Virus record (IMG/VR): IMGVR_UViG_3300003891_000021 | Span: 6,021 to 26,507 of that record | Reading direction: 5' to 3' (one strand) | From: a virus | DNA: 20,487 bases | Shown here: one piece after another, positions 447-8,243 of the stretch | How the letters are laid out: every line of letters begins with the position of its first letter | Position numbering within the stretch: the stretch's first letter is position 1 | Translations under genes and position numbers: made by a program | Notes under the pieces: model-generated | The model's input: only the letters and a program-made list of their open reading frames with translations | Told to the model about the DNA's origin: nothing | Database searches by the model: none

Positions 447-462
447 TGGCACGCTTTTTGCA
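447..462 (+). promoter_or_regulatory. Sigma-54 (-24/-12) promoter
   Basis: TGGCACGCTTTTTGCA matches the sigma-54 consensus TGGCACR-N4-TTGCW at every defined position. The GG (448-449) and GC (460-461) dinucleotides are exactly 10 bases apart, as required. This predicts a transcript start at about 473, where two hairpins begin, and the first SD site and ATG follow at 524-536. Sigma-54 promoters need an ATP-dependent enhancer-binding protein; none is encoded here, so the host or another phage region would have to supply it. Such a match is unlikely by chance in A+T-rich noncoding DNA. Confidence 0.8.
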
Positions 463-472
463 TATAAATTAA

Positions 473-506
473 TGAGATTAAAAATCTCACTCCTGCTTGG
501 CAGGAG
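473..506 (+). promoter_or_regulatory. Two tandem 5'-UTR hairpins at the predicted transcript start
   Basis: TGAGATT (473-479) pairs with AATCTCA (483-489) around an AAA loop. It is followed without a gap by CTCCTGC (490-496), which pairs with GCAGGAG (500-506) around a TTG loop. The first base of hairpin one is the predicted +1 of the sigma-54 promoter, so the mRNA would begin in a stem. Hairpin two holds an SD-like AGGAGG that leads to no near start codon; the true SD is at 524-528. Likely roles are mRNA stabilisation, or a regulatory or decoy element (inference). Confidence 0.6.
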
Positions 507-533
507 GTAATAAAAACAAATTAGGAGGTAGTT

Positions 534-680
534 ATGTCATCATTTAATTTGGTTGTTACAATTAAGGCAAATCAAGAGGAAGATTTTTTTGATTTTCTTC
601 TGGTTGCTGTAGATGGAAAGAGGAAGTGGCTTAATGCCTCTTCCTTATTTTTTTTAGAGGAGGTGAATTATGTCAGATAA
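534..680 (+). CDS. Small leader protein (48 aa), first gene of the sigma-54 operon
   Basis: ATG at 534 follows a strong SD (GGAGG at 524-528, 5-base spacer) and opens a 48-codon frame ending in TAA at 678-680. The product starts MSSFNLVVTIKANQEEDFFD and is acidic, with a hydrophobic C-terminal half. I do not recognise it. The 3' part of the frame (621-655) is also an intrinsic-terminator hairpin with a run of eight T, and the last 11 bases overlap the next gene. This fits a leader peptide whose translation influences termination, though it could simply be a small gene. Its SD and start (524-536) are perfectly complementary to the loop of the hairpin at 3399-3473. Confidence 0.55.
   Translation: MSSFNLVVTIKANQEEDFFDFLLVAVDGKRKWLNASSLFFLEEVNYVR
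621..655 (+). terminator. Intrinsic terminator or attenuator inside the leader ORF
   Basis: AGGAAGTGGC (621-630) pairs with GCCTCTTCCT (636-645) with one T-T mismatch around a TTAAT loop, followed by TATTTTTTTT (646-655). The U-tract ends about five bases before the SD (AGAGGAGG) of the gene at 670. Lying within the coding sequence of the 534 gene and before the rest of the operon, it is better read as an attenuator than an operon end: a ribosome on the leader ORF would disrupt the stem. Confidence 0.65.
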
Positions 681-951
681 ATTTGGTAAACGGCTTATAA
701 ATGATGGAGACGAGATTGTAGGAGGGTGTGCTAACGCCTTTGGCGACAGATACTGGGCTTTGGTATATTTTTTTGGTGATAAATACAATGCAAGTGGATT
801 TTACTATGTGGCTTGGAATGTAGGGGGAAGTGGGCCTTGGGGATTTTGGTATAGCTACTGCAATAAGAAGCATGTTATTGACATTCTTATAGATGAGGGC
901 TGGGACGCAGAAGAAATTGATGCTGTTTTTAAAGAATATGAAGAAGATTAA
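670..951 (+). CDS. Hypothetical protein (93 aa), aromatic- and glycine-rich
   Basis: ATG at 670 is preceded by a strong SD (GAGGAGG). The product has a glycine/aromatic-rich centre (residues 25-65, with GGSGPWGFWYS) and an acidic C-terminal tail (DEGWDAEEIDAVFKEYEED). No signal peptide, membrane segment or catalytic motif is visible, and I do not recognise the family. It begins within the 3' end of the leader ORF in another frame (11-base overlap) and directly after the terminator-like hairpin, so its expression should depend on read-through. An antisense frame on the opposite strand is a low-complexity shadow. Confidence 0.7.
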   Translation: MSDKFGKRLINDGDEIVGGCANAFGDRYWALVYFFGDKYNASGFYYVAWNVGGSGPWGFWYSYCNKKHVIDILIDEGWDAEEIDAVFKEYEED

Positions 952-976
952 TTGAAAAAAAGAAAAAATTAAAGAA

Positions 977-1075
977 AAAGTGAAGAGGAAAGGCAAGAGG
1001 CGGAGATGAGCAAGTGGGTGAGGAAGAGCAGGTTAGCGGGTGAGGAAGAGATAAAATCCCTCTTCACTTTTTTTT
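977..1075 (+). ncRNA. Long hairpin with U-tract between genes; candidate RNA element
   Basis: AAAGTGAAGAGG (977-988) pairs perfectly with CCTCTTCACTTT (1059-1070), followed by further T's. The 70-base loop is nearly all purine and holds two copies of GGGTGAGGAAGAG (1016-1028 and 1038-1050), 22 bases apart. The structure ends about 20 bases before the SD of the gene at 1106. It can act as an intrinsic terminator or attenuator, or be processed into a small RNA. The large repeat-bearing loop is more than termination needs. Confidence 0.5.
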
Positions 1076-1105
1076 ATTTATGAAAAAAATTAATAGGAGG
1101 TAAAT

Positions 1106-1474
1106 ATGTCTGAAGAACAAGCTAAAAATAATATAAAATCTATTATGAAACATTATCTTGATTTTGAGATAATCTGGGCGGATGAGTATGGAATTGATGA
1201 TAATTATATCATTGACGCTCTTGCTTTTCTACATCCTAATCATTCTTATAAAAATGATGCGGGTTTTTATATTTTGTTTTATAAATATTGTGATTGTAAA
1301 TATGATATTAAAAATAATGAAATATATAAAAGTATGTATAATCATTATAAATGCAATTATGAAGAAGCTTGTAAATATTTGAAACTATACAGCAATCTTA
1401 CAGATGAAAAAATCAAAGAAATTTTAAGCCCTTATCAGGAAATTTTAGAAAATTATAAAAAGGAGGATATATGA
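1106..1474 (+). CDS. Hypothetical protein (122 aa)
   Basis: ATG at 1106 has a strong SD (AATAGGAGGTAAAT). The frame ends in TGA overlapping the next ATG (ATGA at 1471-1474), so translation is probably coupled to the annealing-protein gene. The product is helix-rich, lysine- and tyrosine-rich, with several cysteines in its middle (YKYCDCKYD, YKCNYEEACKYLK) but no regular zinc-ligand spacing. The C-terminal third (TDEKIKEILSPYQEILENYK) is strongly helical. I recognise no family. Its place directly before the recombination pair suggests an accessory role in DNA metabolism, which is inference. Confidence 0.7.
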   Translation: MSEEQAKNNIKSIMKHYLDFEIIWADEYGIDDNYIIDALAFLHPNHSYKNDAGFYILFYKYCDCKYDIKNNEIYKSMYNHYKCNYEEACKYLKLYSNLTDEKIKEILSPYQEILENYKKEDI

Positions 1475-2472
1475 AAGAAGAACTTAAAAATCAAAACGGC
1501 GTGAGTGTGCCGACGAACACTCAAAATCAAGAAGATGTAAAAACAGAAGTTGCTGAAATTCAAGTGCTTGAAAAAAAAGAAGACCTGGTCTCGCTTTCTC
1601 AAACTGCACAGGAAAAAGTTGAGGCAATTCAAAAAATCAAGATGGCTATGTTGCGATTGACTAACAAAAGCGATTGGCAAATCTTTTCTGACAAGCCACG
1701 ATTGACTGAAGCGGGCGTGAAAAGATTGATAATGCTATTAGGTATATCTTATAAAATAATTGAAATGCAGAGAGTAGTTGAGGAAGATGGCGAATATTCT
1801 TATGTAGTGAAAATCAAAGCTTGGTGGAAAGGGATTGAGATTGAGGATATGGGAACTGCGAATTCAAAAGACCCTTTTGTGCGAGTGAGAAAAGACAATC
1901 AAGGAAAAAAAATTGAACTGCCTTTGAAATTGGTGGATGAAAATAATGTAAGAAAGAAAGCAATTGCAAATGCTTGCCAGCGAGTGCTTACATCACTGCT
2001 GGGATTGAAAAATCTTTCTATTGATGAGTTGAGGCAGGCAGGAATTGAATTAGGGGCGACAATTGAATTCAAAAAGAAAAAAGAAGAAAAGAAAGAGGAA
2101 AAAGAAGAAGCAAAGGAAAAAGAAAAACAAAAAATAGATAAAGAAAATGAAGAACAAAATCAAGTGCAAATTGATGATGAAAAGATGAAAGATGAAATAT
2201 GTAAATTTTTGGATGGCGATGAGAATGATCCTGAAATCATTTTCACGGATGGAAATTTTTGGTGTCCTCTCTGCAATTCTAAAATGTATGATAATAGACA
2301 AATCAAAATTGAAAAAAAGCAAATGGGAAAAAAATTCCCCACCTTTGCTTGCAAAAATCCAGATTGTAGATGGAAATGGAATGAGAAAGATAAGATATGG
2401 ATTGTATCTGATAAGATAACGGCCATATGGGGAAGGGTAAGGGTGAAGCAGGAAGAGGATTTGAAAATATAA
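1471..2472 (+). CDS. Probable single-strand annealing (recombination) protein with C-terminal zinc finger
   Basis: A 333-residue protein with a strong SD (AAGGAGG). Residues about 50-190 form a compact domain: a helix, then 'DKPRLTEAGVKRL', a strand region with 'EEDGEYSYVVKIKAWWKG', and 'VRKKAIANACQRVLTSLLGLKNLSIDEL'. This resembles phage annealing proteins of the Rad52/Erf-like groups, which find a target (W), 'G..r', and 'k.A..na..r....llG' pattern. A very lysine/glutamate-rich linker follows (about 200-235), then a C-terminal zinc finger (CPLC ... CKNPDC). The next gene is a Cas4-like nuclease, the usual partner of annealing proteins in phage exonuclease/annealase pairs. The family call is from pattern memory, not a search, so moderate confidence. 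Confidence 0.55.
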   Translation: MKEELKNQNGVSVPTNTQNQEDVKTEVAEIQVLEKKEDLVSLSQTAQEKVEAIQKIKMAMLRLTNKSDWQIFSDKPRLTEAGVKRLIMLLGISYKIIEMQRVVEEDGEYSYVVKIKAWWKGIEIEDMGTANSKDPFVRVRKDNQGKKIELPLKLVDENNVRKKAIANACQRVLTSLLGLKNLSIDELRQAGIELGATIEFKKKKEEKKEEKEEAKEKEKQKIDKENEEQNQVQIDDEKMKDEICKFLDGDENDPEIIFTDGNFWCPLCNSKMYDNRQIKIEKKQMGKKFPTFACKNPDCRWKWNEKDKIWIVSDKITAIWGRVRVKQEEDLKI

Positions 2473-2482
2473 GGAGGAAAGT

Positions 2483-3391
2483 ATGATTATAGATAAGATA
2501 AAACCTGACAGAAAAAATTATGCTATATATAGTCATCACTCATCACAATTGGGACATCCTTGCAATAGATATTTGGTGCATAGGATATTGGATTGGGAAA
2601 AAAGGGAAGAACCCTGCGAGGACTTGCAATGGATTTTTTGGGAAGGTGAAAAACATCATAAGTTGCTTTTGCAAGACATAGTCAACGCTGGGATTGATAT
2701 TGTGGAAGTGGAAAAGACATATAATTGGAAAAAATATAATATATCAGGAAAAATTGATATTGTGGCAAAGATAAATGATATATTATATATATTAGAATTG
2801 AAATCAATGTCTGACTGGAGTTGGAATTCAATTAAGACAATTGAGGATGTTAAGAATAATGAGGAATACTATATAAGAAATTATTATACTCAAATTCAAA
2901 TATATATGTTGCTATTAGAAATTGAAAAAGGATTGCTGATATTGAAAAATAAACAAACGGGAAGATTGAAAGAATTTGAAATTAATCTTGATTATGATTT
3001 CTGTGAAAGTATAATTGAAAAAGTAGAGAGATTAAATCAATATATTGAAAAAAAGGAATATCCTGAAAGGCTTAACGATGCAACTGTTTGCTTTGATTGT
3101 GAGTTTAAGAATATTTGCCTTCCTGATTTGATACAAAAAGAAATTGATATTGATATAAATATACTTGATGAATTGTTATTGAAAATAGAAGAGTTGAAAA
3201 AAATAATGTTGCCCTATGAAGAAGAATTGCAAAAATTGGAAAGCGTGAAAAAGCAGGTTCTAACTGGAAAAGATAAGATATTGACCCCTCACTTTCTCAT
3301 AACTGGAAAACAAGTTAATATGCCTGAACGGGTAAGCAAGGCATACTCTTATTGGCGAATTAATGTCAAGAGATTAGGACAAGAGGAATGA
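2483..3391 (+). CDS. Cas4/RecB-like PD-(D/E)XK exonuclease with Fe-S cysteine set
   Basis: A 302-residue protein, strong SD (AAGGAGG). Visible in order: C27 (GHPCNRY); a GEKHH motif (H58); the nuclease core GKIDIV (D92) and LELKS (E105-x-K107); the Q137-xxx-Y141 motif (QIQIY); and a C-terminal cysteine triad C203, C206 and C212 (CFDCEFKNIC). One N-terminal plus three C-terminal cysteines around a RecB-type nuclease is the 4Fe-4S arrangement of Cas4 and AddB-like nucleases. The extra C-terminal helix (about 220-260) may mediate contacts. It probably resects DNA ends for the annealing protein encoded just upstream. No CRISPR array or Cas1/Cas2 is near, so an adaptation role is unlikely. Confidence 0.8.
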   Translation: MIIDKIKPDRKNYAIYSHHSSQLGHPCNRYLVHRILDWEKREEPCEDLQWIFWEGEKHHKLLLQDIVNAGIDIVEVEKTYNWKKYNISGKIDIVAKINDILYILELKSMSDWSWNSIKTIEDVKNNEEYYIRNYYTQIQIYMLLLEIEKGLLILKNKQTGRLKEFEINLDYDFCESIIEKVERLNQYIEKKEYPERLNDATVCFDCEFKNICLPDLIQKEIDIDINILDELLLKIEELKKIMLPYEEELQKLESVKKQVLTGKDKILTPHFLITGKQVNMPERVSKAYSYWRINVKRLGQEE

Positions 3392-3398
3392 AAATAAT

Positions 3399-3473
3399 GA
3401 GGACAGCAGAACATAACTACCTCCATCATCTTAATAATCATCATCATTGTTTTTCTGCTGTCCTCTTTTTTTT
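3399..3473 (+). ncRNA. Terminator-like hairpin with loop antisense to the first gene's SD and start
   Basis: GAGGACAGCAGAA (3399-3411) pairs perfectly with TTCTGCTGTCCTC (3453-3465), followed by eight T (3466-3473). The 41-base loop includes CATAACTACCTCC (3412-3424), the exact reverse complement of GGAGGTAGTTATG at 524-536, which is the SD, spacer and start codon of the operon's first gene. It lies between the Cas4-like gene and the SD (AAAGGAGG) of the gene at 3487. A frame starting at 3388 (ATGA overlap) crosses it, but 3487 is the better start. I infer an antisense RNA with its own terminator, acting on the leader gene. Confidence 0.6.
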
Positions 3474-3486
3474 GAAAGGAGGAATT

Positions 3487-3603
3487 ATGACTATATTAAA
3501 TATATATTTTTTAATTGGTTTTTTGGCTGGCTGGTTTTTATCAGGATTGGTGTTGCTTTTTTTGCAAGACATTGATATAATTGAGATAAGGTTGAAAAAA
3601 TGA
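3487..3603 (+). CDS. Small single-pass membrane protein (38 aa)
   Basis: ATG at 3487 has an ideal SD (AAAGGAGG) and follows the hairpin; the same frame is open from 3388, but that part would be the hairpin itself. The product is one hydrophobic helix (residues about 4-25, IYFLIGFLAGWFLSGLVLL) and a short charged tail (IDIIEIRLKK). Its TGA overlaps the next ATG (ATGA at 3600). A second tiny membrane protein of the same design is at 5782. Small membrane proteins in an early region may act on host envelope functions or exclusion, but nothing here shows which. Confidence 0.65.
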   Translation: MTILNIYFLIGFLAGWFLSGLVLLFLQDIDIIEIRLKK

Positions 3604-3827
3604 AGAAGATAAGATTAGTTGAGAAAAATGATAAGTGGTATGTAGAAGAGGTGGAAGTTGTGTATGTAAAAGATGAGACGAAAAATATTTGGGATTGGCA
3701 AGAGAAGATAATCACAGTAAGAAAAAGATTAGCAACTTGGCTGGAAATTGCAAAATGGAAAGCAGGATATCACTGGCTCATTGAATTTGATATACCTGCT
3801 TATGTAGGGAAAAAAAAAGAATTATGA
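3600..3827 (+). CDS. Hypothetical protein (75 aa), basic
   Basis: Starts in an ATGA overlap with the membrane protein before it; only a weak SD (AAGG) is present, so translational coupling is likely. The product is lysine- and tryptophan-rich (KWYVEEVEVVYVKDE, IWDWQEK, ATWLEIAKWKAGYHWLIEFDIP), mixed strand and helix, with no cysteines or membrane segment. I do not recognise it. It ends at TGA 3825-3827, just before the inverted-repeat element at 3833-3992. A frame overlapping its stop (3824) that crosses that element is probably not coding. Confidence 0.6.
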   Translation: MKKIRLVEKNDKWYVEEVEVVYVKDETKNIWDWQEKIITVRKRLATWLEIAKWKAGYHWLIEFDIPAYVGKKKEL

Positions 3828-3832
3828 AAACA

Positions 3833-3992
3833 ATACCTGCCCTCTGCCTCAAGTATAAGCAAAAATCTCACTCATATAACTTCCTTCAAAATCCCCCTAA
3901 ATGCTCTCCAAAGTCTGCTTATCATTTCATTTATATTTTTTCAAGACCTCTTTTATATCTTTACTCTTTTCTTTTTTTTAGAGGGCAGGTAT
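3833..3992 (+). ncRNA. Inverted-repeat-bounded pyrimidine-rich element, candidate RNA
   Basis: ATACCTGCCCTCT (3833-3845) is the exact reverse complement of AGAGGGCAGGTAT (3980-3992). The 134 bases between are very poor in G and rich in C and T, opposite to the purine-rich + strand elsewhere, and contain several C/U-rich anti-SD-like words (CTTCCTTC, CCCCCT, CTCTCC, GACCTCTTTT). A T-run precedes the right arm, so it is not a plain terminator. No SD leads into the open frame at 3824-4033. The right arm ends about 14 bases before the AGGAG of the gene at 4018. It may be a structured RNA or a long-range stem in the operon mRNA. Confidence 0.45.
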
Positions 3993-4017
3993 ATATTATG
4001 TATTATAGGAGATATAT

Positions 4018-4218
4018 ATGGCATATAATATAGCAGAAGATTTTGAAAAAGAACTACAAGAGATTTTAGGCGATTTGGAATTAGATAAGCAAATGCAAAT
4101 CTTACAGGAATTGCAAAAGGCATATGTGATGGGACAAATAGAGGGAATTCAATTAGGATTGAAAAAGTTAGATGAACTGCAAAAGGAAATTAGGAAATAT
4201 AAGGATAGGATTTATTAA
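4018..4218 (+). CDS. Hypothetical helical protein (66 aa)
   Basis: ATG at 4018 follows AGGAG with an (AT)n spacer. The product is almost entirely alpha-helical and charged, with heptad-like leucine and isoleucine spacing (LQEILGDLELDKQMQILQEL; LKKLDELQKEIRKYKD), which suggests a coiled-coil or oligomerising miniprotein. It has no signal peptide, cysteines or catalytic motif. I do not recognise it. It sits between the inverted-repeat element and the small nuclease gene. Confidence 0.65.
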   Translation: MAYNIAEDFEKELQEILGDLELDKQMQILQELQKAYVMGQIEGIQLGLKKLDELQKEIRKYKDRIY

Positions 4219-4244
4219 ATATATATACTATATGAAAGGAAATT

Positions 4245-4571
4245 ATGAAAAAATTAAAGAAAGGCTATAATCAAGATGTTGTGCTTTTGGCTCTTAATAA
4301 ATTGTTTGAAAATAAATTTGTTAAAGAATACAGATTTGATGAAAAAAGGAAATGGCGATTTGATTTGGCTTGCCCTTCTCTGAAGATTGCGATTGAGGTG
4401 CAAGGCGGGATTTGGATTGGCGGGAGGCATATGAGGGCGAAGGGATATGTAGCGGATATGGAAAAAAATAATGAGGCAGTGAAGCAGGGCTGGAAAATAT
4501 TATATTATCAAAGCTATGATGAGGTTTTGGAAAAGTATAATGATATAATATATACAATGAAAAACATATGA
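4245..4571 (+). CDS. Small PD-(D/E)XK-type nuclease (VRR-NUC/Vsr-like)
   Basis: A 108-residue protein with SD AAAGGA. After an N-terminal helix comes 'WRFDLACPSLKIAIEVQGG', in which D40 and E51-x-Q53 form the nuclease core with Q in place of the usual K. Then 'GRHMRAKGYVADMEKNNEAVKQGWKILYY' follows, the GR..H.....D..K.N.....GW pattern of small phage VRR-NUC and Vsr-like endonucleases. Likely substrates are branched or nicked DNA, so a junction resolvase or nicking role in replication fits. Its end overlaps the methyltransferase start (ATGA at 4568), so the two are translationally coupled; a nuclease-methylase pair also recalls restriction-modification. Confidence 0.7.
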   Translation: MKKLKKGYNQDVVLLALNKLFENKFVKEYRFDEKRKWRFDLACPSLKIAIEVQGGIWIGGRHMRAKGYVADMEKNNEAVKQGWKILYYQSYDEVLEKYNDIIYTMKNI

Positions 4572-5770
4572 AAGATATAAAAGAATTTCTTAATAGGGTT
4601 ATACAGGGGGATTGTCTGGAAGTAATGAAAGAAATTCCTGACAATTCCATTGATACTCTTATCACTGACCCTCCATATGGTTTATCTAATCATTCTGAAA
4701 AAATAATAAGAGAAACTTTATCAAAATGGTTGAATGGTGAGGATGATTATACCCCAAAAGGCAAGGGCTTTATGGGGAAGTCCTGGGATGCTTTTGTCCC
4801 TCCACCTGCGGTGTGGAAAGAATGTTTTAGGATAATGAAACCAGGTGCTACTATTCTGGTGTTTGCAGGCTCAAAGACATATGATTTAATGACAATGAGT
4901 TTAAGATTAGCAGGATTTGAGATAAAAGATACTTTGATGTGGTTGCACTCAATGGGTTTTCCTAAATCTTTAAACATAGCAAAATCAACAGCAAAGAAAC
5001 AAGGAGCAAAAAAGACAGGATTAATAAAGAAAGGAGCGGGCACTAGAGGAAACACTTTTCCATTATCACACGAATATCAAGATTATAAATTAACTCCCGA
5101 AGCCAAACCTTGGAATGGCTGGAAATCACACGGATTAAAACCAGCATATGAACCAATAATAATGGCTATTAAGCCAAATCAGGGAAGTTATTCTGAAAAT
5201 GCTTTAAAATGGGGAGTGGCTGGATTAAATATTGAGGGAGGGAAAATAGGAACAGAAAAAATAATAAGCAGAGGTTCAGAAATAGGAAAAGGATTTTTTA
5301 GCAGAGGTGAAGTAAATCAAGAACATCAAGGTCGCTTCCCTGCTAATGTTATTCTGGATGAAGAAACCGCTAAAATGTTAGATGAACAAAGTGGAATAAA
5401 TGCCTCCCGTTTCTTTTATTGTGCAAAAGCAAGTAAAAGTGAAAGGAATTTTGGACTAGAAGGAATGCCATTGAAAATTGGTGGGGGACTAAATGCTACT
5501 GTAAGTGGTGATAGCAGAACAGGAAGAAAAACTATGCAACAAAACAATCACCCAACAGTAAAACCTTTAAAATTATGTAAATATCTTTGTATTTTAACAA
5601 AGACGCCATTTGGCGGTATAGTTTTAGACCCCTTCGCTGGCTCTGGCTCAATTTTAGTATCTGCAAAGATGACTGGTAGGGATTTCATTGGCATAGAAAA
5701 GGAAAGCGAGTATGTGAAAATTTGTGAAGCAAGATTGAAAGCAGTAAAAGTTAATTTAGATTTATTTTGA
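4568..5770 (+). CDS. DNA methyltransferase (N4-cytosine or N6-adenine, DPPY type)
   Basis: A 400-residue protein with catalytic D34-P-P-Y37 near the N-terminus and the S-adenosylmethionine-binding FAGSG at 356-360 near the C-terminus (LDPFAGSGSI...FIGIEKE). This is the beta-class order. 'HPTVKPLKLCKYL' just before it is a standard feature of the family, and the segment between (about 130-320) should carry target recognition. No separate SD is seen; the start overlaps the nuclease gene (ATGA). It probably methylates phage DNA at a short site, protecting it from host or phage-encoded nucleases. Base specificity (A or C) cannot be settled from this. Confidence 0.9.
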   Translation: MKDIKEFLNRVIQGDCLEVMKEIPDNSIDTLITDPPYGLSNHSEKIIRETLSKWLNGEDDYTPKGKGFMGKSWDAFVPPPAVWKECFRIMKPGATILVFAGSKTYDLMTMSLRLAGFEIKDTLMWLHSMGFPKSLNIAKSTAKKQGAKKTGLIKKGAGTRGNTFPLSHEYQDYKLTPEAKPWNGWKSHGLKPAYEPIIMAIKPNQGSYSENALKWGVAGLNIEGGKIGTEKIISRGSEIGKGFFSRGEVNQEHQGRFPANVILDEETAKMLDEQSGINASRFFYCAKASKSERNFGLEGMPLKIGGGLNATVSGDSRTGRKTMQQNNHPTVKPLKLCKYLCILTKTPFGGIVLDPFAGSGSILVSAKMTGRDFIGIEKESEYVKICEARLKAVKVNLDLF

Positions 5771-7674: not shown

Positions 7675-7828
7675 TTGATACTATGAAAGATATAGATATT
7701 TTCTGCAAAAACTCGGATATGCCTCTTTCTCTACCCTTTAAAAATGTAGATAATCTCTATACAAACTCTGATATGCTACTTTTTGCCACCACAGAAAATA
7801 TAGTTATTTTCTTAAAAAACTTGGCAAA

Positions 7829-8178
7829 GTGTTACAAGTGTTACAAAAGTGTTACACCCAAAACCTTCCAAAAATCCGTTAATTATAATAATAATAATAA
7901 TAATGTAACATGTAACACACACATATATATAAAAAATATATATATATATAAATATATATATTACGTACGTACTATGTATTCCTACAGCGATGCATATATA
8001 TATATATATATATTGTATAAAAAGTGTTACATGTTACAAAAATGGACTTTTTGCAGTTACTATCTGTATTCTCTCCCTGTTACAAAAGTGTTACAAAAGT
8101 GTTACAAGTGTTACAAAGTTCAAAAATTGAACAAAATTGGGGTTTTTTTTGTTATTTTTGCTTTAAATCGTGTAACAC
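7829..8178. other. Iteron-type replication origin
   Basis: GTGTTACA occurs in direct orientation at 7829, 7838, 7849, 8023, 8088, 8099 and 8108, with one-mismatch copies at 8030 and 8077. The reverse complement TGTAACAC occurs at 7911 and 8171, with a one-mismatch copy at 7904. Spacing inside clusters is 9 or 11 bases, about one helical turn. The middle (about 7920-8014) is nearly pure A/T, a good unwinding element. The region follows the ATPase gene. A 185-codon frame crosses it (7683-8240) but has no SD and encodes only repeats such as CYKCYK, YIYIY and NNNNNN, so I treat 7675-8243 as noncoding. It also holds GTTCAAAAATTGAAC at 8118. Confidence 0.8.
7904..8037. repeat. 15-bp inverted repeat flanking an A/T core with a central palindrome
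   Basis: TGTAACATGTAACAC (7904-7918) is the exact reverse complement of GTGTTACATGTTACA (8023-8037). Each arm contains two overlapping iteron-type words. The 104 bases between are mostly alternating TA, interrupted near the centre by the palindrome TACGTACGTA (7962-7971, within about four bases of the midpoint at 7970.5). The symmetry suggests a bidirectional origin core with protein bound on both sides. Confidence 0.8.
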
Positions 8179-8243
8179 ATTTTTTTTGTTATTGGGCAAA
8201 GGAAAACATAGGGAGAGCAAAAAAAATTGATTATAATTGAAAT

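Follow-up and report, generated by a model that had tools for sequence, protein, structure and literature searches.

The window analysed here spans 20,487 nt, bases 6021–26507 of a virus record of 26,507 bases (IMG/VR IMGVR_UViG_3300003891_000021), and a short run of N divides it from the first 6 kb of that record. Genes for terminase, portal, capsid and tape-measure proteins mark it as the DNA of a tailed phage. Positions 534–5770 of the plus strand are filled with tightly spaced genes that apparently form one operon. Its apparent first gene, ORF1 (534–680, plus strand), encodes 48 amino acids and scores as coding (0.19) by a codon-usage measure that was calibrated on the phage's long genes; ORF1 and ORF2 fall into no known family, and we recognised in ORF1 no motif for sensing an amino acid or an antibiotic. 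ORF3 (1471–2472, plus strand), whose homologues adjoin an exonuclease in other phages, is followed by a gene for a Cas4-like, PD-(D/E)XK exonuclease (2483–3391, plus strand), and further downstream the operon carries several small genes and one for a DNA methyltransferase. The leader of ORF1 holds two short perfect hairpins (473–506, plus strand). About 70 nt 5′ of the ORF1 start lies an exact match to a sigma-54-type promoter, TGGCACGCTTTTTGCA (TGGCAC-N5-TTGCA; 447–462, plus strand), which is a possible promoter of the operon; the only other copy of the motif in the window has one mismatch. A phage operon driven by sigma-54 would be unusual. Outside the operon, the stretch 7683–8240 has numerous GTGTTACA/TGTTACA repeats, runs of TATATA and an ORF of dubious coding status; it is possibly a replication-origin-like region.

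Gaps are rare in this tightly packed operon, and each of its three large internal gaps within 950–4020 holds a large hairpin. Hairpin T2 (972–1075, plus strand), in the non-coding gap before ORF3, has a 17-bp stem that includes an A/T tract, a 70-nt purine-rich loop in which the SD-like sequence GGGTGAGGAAGAG is present twice, and a T8 run. The inverted repeat IR4 (3833–3992, plus strand) has a perfect 13-bp stem and a 134-nt non-coding loop that is strongly depleted of G (7 G in 134 nt, P ~1e-6); its T8 run lies just before the 3′ arm, and therefore IR4 is not a standard terminator. Between the two, hairpin T3 occupies a 95-nt gap that extends from the exonuclease stop codon, just 5′ of the hairpin, to the start of ORF6. 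It consists of the 5′ arm GAGGACAGCAGAA (3399–3411), a 41-nt unpaired loop (3412–3452), the 3′ arm TTCTGCTGTCCTC (3453–3465) and a T8 tail (3466–3473), all on the plus strand, with the ORF6 SD coming next at 3478–3482. The sequence thus confirms the perfect 13-bp hairpin with a 41-nt loop and T8 tail that a first-pass annotation had placed at 3399–3473.

With seven G-C pairs among its 13 and a folding z-score of −3.15 against dinucleotide shuffles, the T3 stem is stable, and a U-run follows it directly, as in an intrinsic (Rho-independent) terminator. Terminator loops are usually 3–8 nt long, and a scan of the window for terminators with loops set to 3–8 nt did not return T3. A long loop reduces terminator activity without excluding it; T3 is an atypical terminator in its loop length. 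The loop is also depleted of G (one in 41 nt, binomial P ~0.001 given the composition of the window) and contains simple ATC/AAT repeats, which could have arisen by slippage. By codon usage it is non-coding: the stretch 3397–3486 has a codon score of −0.11, compared with a first percentile of 0.02 for 30-codon pieces of coding sequence, and ORF6, from 3487 onwards, scores 0.19 and so reads as coding.

The T3 loop opens with a sequence that is antisense to the start of the operon. The earlier observation that the first 13 loop bases (3412–3424) are the exact reverse complement of 524–536 proved correct, and the match grows to 14 nt once the last base of the stem is included: the element ACATAACTACCTCC (3411–3424, plus strand) is the exact reverse complement of 524–537 (plus strand), the putative target, which comprises the SD GGAGG, the spacer, the ATG of ORF1 and one further base. 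The window has exactly two copies of the 13-nt sequence GGAGGTAGTTATG, one on the plus strand (524–536) and one on the minus strand (3412–3424). We rejected a minus-strand gene using the latter copy (3424–3412), as its frame is only 21 amino acids long. The duplex of the T3 loop with ORF1 is computed at −20.2 kcal/mol at 37 °C and at −13.8 kcal/mol once the energy needed to open the two sites is deducted; on the T3 side, 1.4 kcal/mol is predicted to free the 13 antisense bases, so that the loop is predicted to be open. Accessible bases complementary to an SD and start, with a favourable energy of pairing, are what is looked for in a small-RNA seed. At 75 °C the duplex still has about −6 kcal/mol, a temperature that may be relevant because some of the distant relatives come from a Hydrogenobaculum phage and a hot-spring-named MAG. 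As antisense to starts, the T1 loop (hairpin T1 lies within ORF1, see below), the T2 loop and the ORF1 leader gave at most 7 nt, and the IR4 loop gave 12 nt of low complexity. Pairing of the T2 loop with the T3 or IR4 loop was also considered and was rejected, as about 29–30% of shuffles reach the observed energy. From the arrangement at T3 we tentatively propose that its loop may act as an antisense autoregulator of the operon's ORF1, a possible reading that the anatomy modestly favours.

The first-pass annotation had cautioned that exact 13-nt matches also arise by chance in such DNA, and rightly so: the A+T-rich window contains 119 exact antisense 13-mer pairs, and therefore the length of the match alone means little. 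The weight was said to come from the functional character of both ends, and this holds, one end covering exactly the SD to the ATG and the other lying in a terminator-like loop. Dinucleotide shuffles of the T3 loop, compared with any of 29 start regions, reached at least 13 nt in 22 of 5000 cases. When the three large loops of the operon were shuffled jointly, at least 13 nt was reached in 52 of 2000 trials and at least 14 nt in 12 of 2000 (0.6–2.6%). In duplex energy, the observed value was equalled with some start by 3.3% of shuffled loops and with ORF1 itself by none of 1000, and 5 of 852 sampled 41-mers bound some start equally well. Ranked by energy, only two long-range antisense pairs of the 26.5-kb record, one of them a local inverted repeat, are stronger than the T3/ORF1 pair, and an equally strong pair appeared somewhere in 3 of 15 shuffled genomes. 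As a control we collected 118 hairpins (stem of at least 10 bp, loop of 12–150 nt) from 486 kb, both strands counted, of the window and related loci; only T3 had a match of at least 13 nt, the next best being 10. The match exceeds chance moderately, with a chance probability of roughly 0.1–3% that does not count a reader's freedom to notice any coincidence. A chance origin of the complementarity is unlikely, not extremely so.

These numbers bear directly on the strongest alternative, an intercistronic terminator or attenuator of the ordinary kind, which lowers expression after the exonuclease gene or sets the 3′ end of the exonuclease mRNA. The loop would then be neutral filler, and its match to ORF1 a coincidence helped by the GGAGG...TATG that the phage's starts share. 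We hold this to be nearly as probable as antisense autoregulation, with coincidence following close behind. It agrees with the abundance of long antisense matches in the genome, with the 0.4–2.6% of trials in which shuffled loops attain 13 nt, with the 41-mers that do equally well by energy and with the simple-repeat character of the loop; in addition, T3 is missing from distant relatives, and we found no strong promoter directly 5′ of T3 (3399). However, coincidence has to account for a match that has the exact SD-to-ATG span, falls on the gene with which this operon begins and is an outlier among all hairpins examined, and a plain terminator has to account for a G-depleted loop of 41 nt where 3–8 nt is usual.

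Other roles for the loop fare far worse. It might act in cis, with CCTCC (3420–3424) and CATAA (3412–3416) pairing with the SD and start of ORF6, GGAGGAATTATG (3478–3489), in a pseudoknot that hides the ribosome-binding site. The two complementary 5-bp blocks, the position of this SD a few bases 3′ of the T8 tail and a probable SD-sequestering inverted repeat directly after the exonuclease gene of a distant relative (L007) all fit such pairing, but ORF6 is not among the loop's eight best duplexes, and the structure requires a 3×2 internal loop and a pseudoknot and leaves the full 13-nt match unused; we regard it as improbable. Slightly less probable again is an anti-SD RNA whose main targets lie elsewhere, in several GGAGG-bearing phage or host messages, with ORF1 merely the best phage match. 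The loop does contain CCTCC and has shorter matches to the starts at 670, 1106, 5896 and 10306; among the phage starts compared, however, ORF1 leads the runner-up by about 6 kcal/mol. Least probable is translation of the loop as the His-rich peptide MRTAEHNYLHHLNNHHHCF (ORF 3397–3603), T3 being a leader-peptide attenuator: the frame is open, has a plausible start coupled to the exonuclease stop and includes many His codons in the loop, but it was rejected as a coding regulatory ORF on codon usage, 3397–3486 scoring below the first percentile of coding pieces and ORF6 having coding-like usage and its own strong SD.

Antisense autoregulation of ORF1 would connect T3 with a second terminator-like hairpin, T1 (621–655, plus strand). 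T1 is formed by AGGAAGTGGC and GCCTCTTCCT, with a 10-bp stem containing one T-T mismatch, the loop TTAAT and then TA and T8, and it sits in the 3′ part of ORF1, directly upstream of the ORF2 SD. Translating ribosomes that follow RNA polymerase are known to stop intrinsic terminator hairpins from forming (PMC5021804). With ORF1 initiation blocked, T1 would thus be free to form and to end transcription of the operon. In the mechanism we propose, T3 would be a non-coding intercistronic terminator-like hairpin that closes the recombination gene block. A transcript 3′ end made by T3, or a fragment processed from it, would carry the open antisense loop, and 3411–3424 would pair with the ribosome-binding site and start codon of ORF1 and block its translation. 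With ORF1 untranslated, T1 could form behind RNA polymerase, and the operon would be cut off early, a delayed negative feedback. Since the antisense element lies behind the recombination genes, it would be active only once those genes have been transcribed. The fullest form of this scheme, a timed off-switch in which a downstream terminator loop represses the operon's first ribosome-binding site by letting T1 form, and to which T2 and IR4 may add further RNA elements, is in our estimate rather unlikely.

The first-pass annotation had supposed that the operon makes an antisense RNA that represses its own first gene, and it stands in part. In its favour are the open, non-coding, G-poor loop, a target at the start of the apparent first gene, the presence of T1 within that gene and the small likelihood of chance. 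Several points weigh against it. We found no strong promoter directly 5′ of 3399, and therefore an RNA of 75 nt would need to be cut from the operon transcript; an Rfam search of the window at the gathering score returned no match; and the nearest relatives, with an exonuclease identity of at most 38%, have no such hairpin.

The arrangement can be compared with several known systems. C4 of phages P1 and P7 sits upstream of its own target. It is a phage antisense RNA with complementary sequences in its loops, aimed at a ribosome-binding-site region (PMC12197685), and titles cited in a further source (PMC8546580) describe it as a processed 77-base RNA and report that C4, icd and ant, which share an operon, depend on one another. 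T3 likewise holds in its loop an element complementary to a ribosome-binding site, and its target lies in the same operon. In contrast to T3, C4 works in immunity, has a different and conserved fold and involves other genes; the T3 element sits in a terminator loop, about 2.9 kb 3′ of its target. A search with the C4 Rfam family at E≤1 in 380–1110 and 3300–4030 gave no match. T3 is not a member of the C4 family, and the resemblance is one of logic.

The small RNAs sar of P22 and OOP of lambda owe their long complementarity to being transcribed antisense to their targets. Like the putative T3 RNA they are small, come from a phage and are directed at a phage message; sar interferes with the initiation of antirepressor translation (PMC12197685). 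The T3 match, in contrast, is 14 nt long, and the T3 element lies on the same strand as its target. Bacterial trans-acting small RNAs derived from 3′ UTRs end in the intrinsic terminator of the mRNA and carry a single-stranded seed against an SD. In the putative T3 RNA the candidate seed is inside the terminator loop itself. Translation-dependent attenuators have a leader ORF that overlaps a terminator, as ORF1 overlaps T1, so that translation of ORF1 could prevent termination; they differ in that the signal proposed here is an antisense RNA.

If antisense autoregulation is correct, a single hairpin would both form the 3′ end of a transcript and repress, as antisense, the start of the same transcript, a compact feedback loop. 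Such a circuit would be readable from sequence, and other phages could be searched for it by looking for terminator loops with complementarity to an SD and start. It would also extend the short list of phage antisense RNAs whose target is clear, here from a lineage in which we found no close relative. If the match is due to chance, it would indicate that hairpin loops with an anti-SD core yield such matches at about the per cent level in A+T-rich phages.

Relatives were sought by exact peptide scans with the exonuclease, capsid, terminase and primase-like proteins, by exact DNA scans with the ORF1 start and the T3 stem, and by alignment of the exonuclease and capsid. No close relative was found in viral collections and one genome scan, the best identities being 38% for the exonuclease and 31% for the capsid, and phage and plasmid collections held nothing relevant at the DNA level. 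The T3 hairpin is absent in the distant relatives (exonuclease identity of at most 38%). One of these, L011, has a long hairpin directly after its exonuclease gene (4196–4300), with a loop that contains CATAGAAACCTCC (4237–4249), again exactly antisense to an SD-spacer-ATG pattern. The 8.6-kb fragment of L011 holds no target for it, and therefore we do not count it as support for the antisense reading of T3. In L007, a likely SD-sequestering hairpin (1958–2025) follows the exonuclease gene, in which ACCTCCCC is paired with GGGGAGGT, the SD of the gene that comes next.
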